Source: Sphingobium sp. V4 (GTDB taxonomy: Bacteria > Pseudomonadota > Alphaproteobacteria > Sphingomonadales > Sphingomonadaceae). Taken from it: 64,000 nucleotides of DNA. A model generated the notes under the pieces. It worked only from the letters and a program-made list of their open reading frames with translations, did no database searches and was not told the DNA's origin. Where the stretch lies: the NCBI RefSeq assembly GCF_029590555.1, contig NZ_CP081001.1, forward strand, positions 2,886,001-2,950,000, in the 5' to 3' direction. This document shows, piece by piece, positions 8,022 to 10,195 of the stretch. A program made the translations under genes and the position numbers. Numbering within the stretch: the first letter of the stretch is position 1; each line of letters starts with the position of its first letter.

Positions 8022-9079
8022 CAGTCGCGAACTCCCCGTTGCCGCACATGGCGGATCAGCGCCTCGACATGCGATAGGGGCGTGTCGGGCAATATGCCAT
8101 GGCCCAGATTGAAGATATGCGGGCGGTCGGCGAAGGCGGCGCGGATAGTGTCGACCGCTTCCTCAACCGCGCGGCCACCGGCGATCAGCGCCAGCGGATC
8201 GAGATTGCCCTGCACCGGCATTCCCTGCGGCAGCGCCCGGTTGGCCCAATGCGGATCGATCGTCTCGTCCACGCCTATCGCATCGACCCCGGTGCGCGCG
8301 GCATAGTCGGCCAGCTTGGCGCCCGCGCCCTTGGGAAAGCCGATGACCGGAACATCGGGATGCAGCGCCTTCAGTCGCTCGACGATCCGCCGGTTCGGCT
8401 CGATCACCCAGCGTTCGAACTGAAGCGGGGCAAGGCTGCCTGCCCAGCTGTCAAACAGTTGCACGGCTTCCACGCCTGCCTGAATCTGGCCGGAAAGATA
8501 GACGACGGTGGCGTCGATGATCGCGTCGATCAAAGCCGCGAAACTGTCTGGTTCGTTGTAGGCCATGCGACGGGCGGCACCATGATCCTTGCTGCCCTGC
8601 CCCGCGACCATATAGGTGGCGATGGTCCAGGGGCTGCCGGCGAAGCCCAGGAAGGTGACATGGGGATCAAGGGCGGCCTTTACCCGTCTTACCGTCTCAT
8701 AGACCGCCTCGAACCGGCTGAAATCCGGCTTCAGCACCGACAGCGCGGTTTCGGCCAATATCGGTGCCAGGCGCGGACCTTCCCCCGCCTCGAACCAGAG
8801 ATCCTGCCCCATGGCATAGGGCACGATCAAAATGTCCGAAAAGAGGATGGCGCCGTCGAATCCGAAACGCCGGAGCGGCTGGAGAGTCACTTCGGCCGCA
8901 GCTTCGCTGTCATAGACGAGTTCCAGGAATCCGCCTTTCTCCGCCCGCAAGGCGCGATATTCGGGCAGATATCGTCCAGCCTGGCGCATCAGCCACATGG
9001 GCGGCACGGCTGGGCGTTCACCCTGGAGGACGCCCAGGAGGGGTTTTTCGGCGAGGCGCGCCGGGGCGTCAAAGCTCAT
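8021..9079 (-). CDS. hemE: Uroporphyrinogen decarboxylase
   Basis: HemE removes four carboxyl groups from uroporphyrinogen III to give coproporphyrinogen III in haem synthesis. The 352-residue product carries the family motifs PPMWLMRQAGRYLPEY near the N-terminus and GFAGSPWT in the middle. I placed the start at 9079, after a GAGAGAG ribosome site, because the upstream part of the open frame is low-complexity and runs into the origin region. The position of hemE beside the origin is conserved in Caulobacter and relatives. The gene runs leftward, away from the origin. Confidence 0.97.
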   Translation of the reverse strand: MSFDAPARLAEKPLLGVLQGERPAVPPMWLMRQAGRYLPEYRALRAEKGGFLELVYDSEAAAEVTLQPLRRFGFDGAILFSDILIVPYAMGQDLWFEAGEGPRLAPILAETALSVLKPDFSRFEAVYETVRRVKAALDPHVTFLGFAGSPWTIATYMVAGQGSKDHGAARRMAYNEPDSFAALIDAIIDATVVYLSGQIQAGVEAVQLFDSWAGSLAPLQFERWVIEPNRRIVERLKALHPDVPVIGFPKGAGAKLADYAARTGVDAIGVDETIDPHWANRALPQGMPVQGNLDPLALIAGGRAVEEAVDTIRAAFADRPHIFNLGHGILPDTPLSHVEALIRHVRQRGVRD

Positions 9080-9224
9080 CAGACTCTCTCTTATATTTAG
9101 ATTCAAAGGATGGTGGTGATTGTTGGTCCGTTGGCAGCGGGGTTTATGCGCTGTGCCCGCTTTTGCCAACAACTTGACTCCGCAGAGTCACGCAAGGCGG
9201 TACGAGTCAGCGTGACTATCCCCG

Positions 9225-9233
9225 TTATCCACA
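9225..9233 (+). promoter_or_regulatory. DnaA box 1 (perfect)
   Basis: TTATCCACA, an exact match to the DnaA consensus TTATNCACA. Four bases separate it from the one-mismatch box at 9237-9245, which faces the other way (TGTGGATGA). Confidence 0.85.
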
Positions 9234-9267
9234 GGTTGTGGATGAAAATTCGGGGCTGTTGGGCTGT

Positions 9268-9276
9268 TGTGGATAA
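9268..9276 (-). promoter_or_regulatory. DnaA box 3 (perfect)
   Basis: TGTGGATAA on the plus strand, i.e. TTATCCACA on the minus strand. It faces the boxes at 9225 and 9337. Confidence 0.85.
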
Positions 9277-9336
9277 GAATCCGGGCAGCGGGGACGGGGA
9301 AATGAGGGAAACTTATCCCCGGATTCATCCCTTGCT

Positions 9337-9345
9337 TTATCCACA
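9337..9345 (+). promoter_or_regulatory. DnaA box 4 (perfect)
   Basis: TTATCCACA located 23 bases before the start codon of the DUF299 gene. DnaA bound here could also affect transcription of that gene. Confidence 0.85.
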
Positions 9346-9367
9346 GCCTCCCCACAGAGATGTGCCC

Positions 9368-10195
9368 ATGGCGCGTATTCATCTGCATCTTCTGTCCGAC
9401 TCTACCGGCGAAACGCTGGAGAATATCGCCAAGGCGGCGATCGGCCTGTTCGAGAATGTCGAGGCAATCCGCCATTTCTGGCCAATGGTGCGGTCGGAGG
9501 TGCATCTCGACCGGATCATGGAGGAAATCGCCGCCAATCCCGGCCTCGTCCTCTTCACGCTGACCAATCATATGCTGCGCCGCCGGCTGGAAACGCGGTG
9601 CCGCGCGCTGGGGCTGCCCCATGTCGCCGCGCTCGACAGCGTGGCGGACGCGCTGTCCAACATATTGGGGCAGGAAACGCGGACCCGGCCGGGACGCAAA
9701 CATATATTGGACGAAGCCTATTTCGCGCGGATCGAAGCGATCCAGTTCACGATCGCCCATGATGACGGGGTGGGGCATGAAAATTGGGAGGAGGCCGACA
9801 TCGTGCTGGCGGGCGTATCGCGCGCGTCCAAGACGCCGACCTCCATCTATCTGGCCAATCGCGGCTACAAGACCGCCAATATCCCGCTCGTCCCGGAATC
9901 GCCGCCGCCACGCAGCCTTTTCAACCTGCGCCATCCGATGGTCGTGGGCCTGACCGTCAGCCCCGAGCGTCTGGTGCAGATCCGTCGCAACCGGCTGCTT
10001 TCGCTCAACCAGGCGCCCGAGACCGCCTATGTCGATATCGACAAGGTGCAGGATGAACTGTCCTTCGCCCGGCGCATGTTCGCCGACCAGGGCTGGCCGG
10101 TGATCGACATGACGCGCCGGTCGATCGAGGAGGCTGCGGCAGCGATCATCAATCTGTTCAACGACCGCGAACTTGGCGAAGGAGCCCATCCATGA
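9368..10195 (+). CDS. DUF299 bifunctional kinase/pyrophosphorylase (PEP synthase/PPDK regulatory protein)
   Basis: A 275-residue cytosolic protein of the DUF299 family. Members switch phosphoenolpyruvate synthase or pyruvate phosphate dikinase on and off by ADP-dependent phosphorylation and phosphate-dependent dephosphorylation. The start MARIHLHLLSDSTGETLE is characteristic and fixes the ATG at 9368, and the P-loop-like GVSRASKTPTSIYLANRG lies in the middle. This is the gene right of the origin in Caulobacter too. It overlaps maf by 4 bases and begins a rightward run with aroE and coaE. Which enzyme it controls here cannot be told, since no ppsA or ppdK gene is in the window. Confidence 0.93.
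   Translation: MARIHLHLLSDSTGETLENIAKAAIGLFENVEAIRHFWPMVRSEVHLDRIMEEIAANPGLVLFTLTNHMLRRRLETRCRALGLPHVAALDSVADALSNILGQETRTRPGRKHILDEAYFARIEAIQFTIAHDDGVGHENWEEADIVLAGVSRASKTPTSIYLANRGYKTANIPLVPESPPPRSLFNLRHPMVVGLTVSPERLVQIRRNRLLSLNQAPETAYVDIDKVQDELSFARRMFADQGWPVIDMTRRSIEEAAAAIINLFNDRELGEGAHP

Follow-up and report, generated by a model that had tools for sequence, protein, structure and literature searches.

A probable hemE-type replication origin on the main chromosome of Sphingobium sp. V4

Introduction

The chromosomal origin of Caulobacter crescentus, Cori, lies between hemE and a DUF299 gene, a placement shared by the Sphingobium locus described here. The likeness extends to the combination of strong and weak DnaA sites and to the presence of several GANTC sites, already known at the Caulobacter origin (PMC3973325). 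The two loci differ in their DnaA recognition words, which are G-boxes (TGATCCACA) in Caulobacter according to PMC4285127, whereas the Sphingobium gap carries exact TTATCCACA boxes. They also differ in CtrA sites: PMC4468827 gives five of high affinity for Cori, whereas TTAA-N7-TTAA is absent from the Sphingobium gap and from all 29 family gaps examined for it, and in this respect the locus is not of the Caulobacter type.

Nearer relatives provide a closer model. According to PMC4741004, which cites Brassinga 2001 for the conserved cluster, a hemE-side oriC is already predicted in DoriC for most Sphingomonadaceae. The predicted origin of Sphingopyxis granuli TFA presented there resembles ours in lying beside hemE and in having conserved putative DnaA boxes and an intergenic unwinding element. 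That comparison concerned Sphingopyxis strains and prediction; ours concerns Sphingobium and adds box-by-box counts, a conserved sequence that we call element B, and a GANTC cluster. Because a hemE-side origin had already been predicted for most of the family (PMC4741004), the outcome was expected, and the gap appears to be an ordinary, conserved origin of the type predicted for its relatives. What this analysis adds is its position relative to the skew, the box map, element B and a pair of GANTC clusters. The probable origin, about 315 kb from the start of dnaA, and a rough terminus can now be placed on a 3.21-Mb Sphingobium chromosome, and the box-by-box map of a sphingomonad origin raises two questions: the identity of the factor that recognises TTGCCAACA-N2-TTGAC, and a possible role of GANTC methylation as an initiation timer outside Caulobacter.

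Results and discussion

Gene context of the gap

The window analysed here is a 64,000-nucleotide stretch (C1:2,886,001-2,950,000) of a genome in four contigs, which include the main chromosome C1 (3,209,747 bp) and C2 (1,247,975 bp). The putative oriC, to which no strand is assigned, is the whole 288-bp gap (window positions 9080..9367) between two divergent genes, hemE, which starts at 9079 (-), and the DUF299 gene, whose ATG is at 9368. Profile matches above cut-offs identify hemE (TIGR01464), DUF299/PpsR (NF003742 and PF03618), AroE (TIGR00507), CoaE (TIGR00152) and DnaQ (TIGR01406), and the window DUF299 protein matches its counterpart in Sphingobium sp. TCM1 at 100% identity. An earlier, sequence-only reading had placed the gap between hemE and the DUF299 gene, and the coordinates and profiles bear this out. 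It had also matched the order to the right, maf-aroE-coaE-dnaQ, to that of Caulobacter; here aroE, coaE and dnaQ are confirmed by profile, and the Maf-like neighbour matches its families only below their cut-offs. A gap between divergent hemE and DUF299 genes is the layout of the alphaproteobacterial hemE-type origin, as in Caulobacter, Rickettsia and Sphingopyxis. The further claim that the origin fixes the coordinate system of the genome does not hold by itself, because the strain sequence starts at dnaA (C1:73-1392). No Rfam family was found in 8900-9600 of the window.

A cluster of DnaA boxes beyond chance

Three boxes in the gap are exact copies of TTATCCACA: box 1 (9225..9233, +), box 3 (9268..9276, -) and box 5 (9337..9345, +). 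Box 2 (9237..9245, -) reads TCATCCACA, with one mismatch, and all four are letter-exact as the sequence-only reading had listed them. Box 4 (9313..9321, +) reads TTATCCCCG, with two mismatches, and a sixth position (9348..9356, +) reads CTCCCCACA, with three, and holds TCCCCA, the W-box word of Caulobacter in PMC4285127. A degenerate box position nearer hemE, element A (9129..9137, -), reads CTGCCAACG, which in the window is five mismatches from TTATCCACA. On the chromosome the boxes lie at C1:2,895,225-2,895,345.

The clustering of these boxes is beyond chance. The 4.54 Mb genome contains ten exact copies of TTATCCACA, all on C1, and three of the ten fall in this 288-bp gap, for which a hand estimate gives a chance of about 5e-7. 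The genome has 12 copies of the reversed control word, so it is not TTATCCACA itself that is enriched, only its clustering. The window-wide total of boxes within one mismatch is likewise unremarkable (6 vs 3.31 expected, a number reached by 9 of 100 shuffles); four of these six fall inside the gap.

Our mismatch-tolerant scan for box clusters covered 61% of C1, and C2 was searched for exact boxes. Allowing one mismatch, the top 300-bp window was the gap, with 4 boxes vs 3 at the runner-up, C1:2,455,107, in a sample smaller than the 61%; allowing two, the gap held 5 boxes vs 4 at many places across the 61%. With differences of 4 vs 3 and 5 vs 4, the lead over the runner-up clusters is small, and the three exact boxes together are the stronger argument. 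A denser cluster elsewhere, for example beside dnaA, would have told against the sequence-only reading; none was found in the scanned 61% of C1, and the sequence around dnaA (C1:1-8000) contains no box within one mismatch.

The runner-up (C1:2,455,107-2,455,151) was rejected as a rival cluster, having three boxes within one mismatch, fewer than the gap. Its boxes lie on the same strand between frames that by eye are Gfo/Idh/MocA-like and arabinofuranosidase-like, just upstream of the latter; a DnaA-regulated promoter or a titration site is possible. Another cluster, at C1:1,618,943/1,618,954, lies inside a frame that by eye is TonB-receptor-like and was set aside as having fewer boxes than the gap.

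The AT-rich stretch beside hemE

A candidate unwinding element (9080..9129, no strand) adjoins hemE. The 40-bp windows that start at 9080 and 9090 are 62% AT, those that follow are at most 47%, and the genome-wide value is about 35%; the AT-rich stretch that had been noted beside hemE is real, and it lies next to the boxes as would suit a role in unwinding. Within it, at 9107-9126, is a partly conserved trinucleotide-like run, AGGATGGTGGTGATTGTTGG. This run recalls the basal unwinding system (BUS), which PMC8287927 describes as DnaA boxes, a spacer and DnaA-trios, and in many family members a box position adjoins the run. We applied the BUS rule in a single-box form, with a box of at most two mismatches, a spacer of 0-16 and at least three DnaA-trios. 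The window gap differs from the BUS as given in PMC8287927 in that it yields no match to this rule, the adjacent box position being five mismatches from TTATCCACA. Among relatives, 53 of 135 (these include the best 80 of at least 559) match it, compared with 37 of 500 shuffled versions of the window gap.

Strand asymmetry of C1

Counted from the terminus or detrended, cumulative GC skew reaches its minimum at 2.88-2.90 Mb and its maximum at 1.22-1.24 Mb, with 62 of 161 bins interpolated. Over C1:2.62-3.21 Mb, where 2,500 N are all that is missing, GC reaches its lowest point at 2,892,000 and GC minus AT reaches its own at 2,895,000. A two-level fit to GC and AT jointly gives an origin at 2.90 Mb (bootstrap 2.81-3.00) and a terminus at 1.25 Mb. 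The GC-only fit and the AT low disagree with this placement: the former gives 3.17 Mb with a bootstrap range of 3.02-3.54 Mb, which wraps past zero and excludes the gap, and detrended AT skew is lowest at 2.78 Mb, where the AT-only fit also places the origin (terminus 1.62 Mb). GC minus AT counted from the terminus is lowest at 2.76 Mb and next lowest at 2.90 Mb; in half-sampled tiles the GC low is the 2.72-Mb tile; and, owing to the positive net GC skew, a plain GC count from base 1 is at its minimum in the first tile. The sequence-only reading had predicted a skew minimum at the gap, and it is found there by cumulative GC and by the joint fit, not by the GC-only fit or by AT alone. We weighted the cumulative low above the GC-only fit, which is a judgement, because the fit is pulled by a block at about 3.05-3.17 Mb. 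GC skew in this block runs opposite to the trend of its replichore, perhaps as a result of a recent inversion or of imported DNA.

An origin elsewhere on C1 would have three places to lie: near dnaA at position 0, at about 3.17 Mb, or at 2.72-2.78 Mb near the AT-skew low and the parS-like sites. Each has something in its favour, the first the position of dnaA itself, the second the GC-only fit, and the third the AT-skew low at 2.78 Mb together with a group of five parS-like sites, of which one is exact and the other four have one mismatch each, in about 18 kb at C1:2,721,888-2,739,702, 155-173 kb from the gap; the reversed parS control gave 0 matches. However, C1:1-8000, around dnaA, has no box within one mismatch, and across C1:2.62-3.21 Mb the only places with at least two boxes within one mismatch per 300 bp are the gap and a weak pair at 2,814,385/2,814,513. 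Cumulative GC counted from 2.62 Mb is also deepest at 2.892 Mb (-2388), vs -1850 at 2.76 Mb and -1166 at 3.17 Mb. We consider an origin at any of these places extremely improbable. The gap is very probably the oriC of the 3.21-Mb chromosome C1, and the cumulative skew low and the lack of a denser box cluster in the scanned sequence support the sequence-only reading on this point.

Two further landmarks gave no signal. No dif-like site was found with the E. coli-type 18-mer at up to three mismatches, and a search for 16S rRNA orientation found no 16S rRNA in the genome, the same search having matched 9 of 14 control genomes, Caulobacter not among them.

Conservation among relatives

We compared the gap with the 80 nearest named loci (the near relatives, the best 80 of at least 559) and with draws from the family and the class. 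All 80 of these near relatives have the divergent hemE-DUF299 gap, at 270-389 bp. DUF299 is present in 56 of 59 family genomes; with our own genome left out, the divergent gap occurs in 54 of 55, and in the other (G028) hemE was not found within about 3.1 kb upstream of DUF299. Family counts rest on 55 gaps, namely those 54 together with one taken from the class draw (L222). In the class, DUF299 is present in 68 of 115 genomes. Of the loci from other families, the 28 that scored best were fetched, and 26 of them show the divergent gap, 23 of the 26 with a box within one mismatch and three without.

At least one such box is present in 80/80 near relatives (best 80 of at least 559) and in 51 of 55 family gaps, with four lacking one. 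Mean boxes per gap are 3.30 in these near relatives (best 80 of at least 559) and 2.11 in the family (n=55), against 0.025 and 0.018, respectively, in single-base shuffles.

Individual positions, counted after 136 sequences had been aligned with MAFFT, are kept unevenly. Within one mismatch among the near relatives (best 80 of at least 559), box 1 is kept in 63/80 and in 21/52 ungapped family rows, box 2 in 38/79 ungapped near relatives and 10/53 ungapped family rows, box 3 in 54/80 but only 4/55 family rows, and box 5 in 58/80 but only 5/51 ungapped family rows; box 4, within two mismatches, is kept in 34/79 ungapped near relatives and 10/53 ungapped family rows. Position 6 is found within one mismatch in 37/48 ungapped family rows and in 11 of the 80 near relatives (best 80 of at least 559). 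The best-kept positions are boxes 1, 3 and 5 among these near relatives (again the best 80 of at least 559) and position 6 in the wider family. Element A comes within two mismatches of TTATCCACA in 27/55 family gaps vs 14/80 near relatives (best 80 of at least 559). To the extent that this alignment is reliable, the place of the origin seems stable while single boxes are gained and lost.

GANTC sites at the gap and at ccrM

The gap holds seven GANTC sites (9082..9326, no strand), starting at 9082, 9100, 9176, 9185, 9204, 9277 and 9322. GANTC density is 14-16 per kb in the gaps of relatives (the best 80 of at least 559 included) vs 1.8 per kb across the window. In 1.97 Mb sampled, only two places have at least seven GANTC in 288 bp: the gap, and C1:777,595-778,081, at the ccrM promoter, with up to nine per 288 bp. 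The latter spans the start (C1:777,934) of a 375-residue protein whose N6_N4_Mtase and RAMA domains identify it as a predicted CcrM-type methyltransferase. A CcrM-type gene is present in 59/59 family genomes, and all 30 of the family loci fetched, our own included, have at least four GANTC in the 350 bp upstream of it; at these loci (n=30) GANTC density is 18.7 per kb upstream vs 1.1 downstream.

DnaA is also a transcription factor, and the gap might be a shared regulatory region only, in which DnaA and CcrM-dependent regulators act on the hemE and DUF299 promoters while the origin lies elsewhere. That the other dense GANTC cluster is a promoter, that of ccrM, fits this explanation, as does the general enrichment of GANTC sites in intergenic regions given in PMC3973325. 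We nevertheless regard it as very improbable: the skew low is at the gap, no better box cluster appears in the scanned sequence, the parS-like sites lie in this region of the chromosome, and in relatives the equivalent gap has been predicted to be the origin (PMC4741004).

With the gap as oriC, initiation might proceed as follows. DnaA would bind the strong boxes at 9225, 9268 and 9337 and then spread over the weaker positions at 9237, 9313 and 9348, possibly also 9129 and 9163, in the direction of hemE. The AT-rich stretch there would melt and allow helicase loading. Two forks would proceed towards a terminus near C1:1.2-1.25 Mb. Their passage would leave the seven GANTC sites hemimethylated, and methylation by CcrM could mark the freshly copied origin.

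Element B

Element B (9163..9178, +) reads TTGCCAACAACTTGAC and follows the pattern TTGCCAACA-N2-TTGAC, typical of Sphingobium. We consider it a candidate degenerate DnaA box or IHF-like site. Its pattern TTGCCAACANNTTGAC occurs in 54 of the 61 genus genomes searched, as a single copy in 53 and as two copies in our own, and the reversed control gave 1 match across the 61; these counts record presence in the genome, not position beside hemE. Among family genomes, 14 of 59 have it; apart from our own, each of the 13 carries its copy just upstream of DUF299. The element reads TTGCCAACA in 19/55 family gaps and in 62/80 near relatives (best 80 of at least 559), the other 18 of which have ATGCCAACA (7), GTATCGACA (6), TTGTGCCGG (2), TCGCCAACA (1), TCATCCACA (1) or TTATCCACA (1). 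Variants within two mismatches of TTATCCACA occur in 4/55 family gaps and in 8 of these 18 near relatives (from the best 80 of at least 559), and the 8 of 18 suggest that element B may be a DnaA-box position that has drifted.

Elements A and B could be drawn as a hairpin (GTTGGCA...TGCCAAC), a reading that we rejected because element A varies while element B stays constant in many relatives. Two box positions are favoured instead, since in one relative (L207) A and B read TGTGGATAA and TTATCCACA. As for IHF, a comparison by eye finds that TGCCAACAACTTG agrees in 9 of 13 letters with the IHF site of E. coli oriC given in PMC4285127. A fuller proposal, which we hold to be rather unlikely, is that element B is a lineage-specific sphingomonad origin element. 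Lying between the strong boxes and the AT-rich stretch, it would descend from an ancestral DnaA-box position and have turned into a conserved site whose recognition has changed, being bound by IHF or by some other protein or serving as a purposely weak DnaA site, and it would time initiation together with GANTC methylation. Literature searches that did not use its letters, and passages of PMC4741004, PMC4468827, PMC8287927, PMC3973325, PMC11514494 and PMC4285127, gave nothing naming element B; it may already be drawn in a supplementary figure of PMC4741004.

The second copy of TTGCCAACANNTTGAC in our genome is at C2:931,707-931,722, on the 1.25-Mb replicon. It was rejected as a second origin copy, the nearest box within one mismatch being about 4.6 kb off in the 20 kb examined around it. 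Frames nearby are, by eye, IS91-type transposase-like and tyrosine recombinase-like, and we treat this copy as chance, about 0.03 being expected by a hand calculation.
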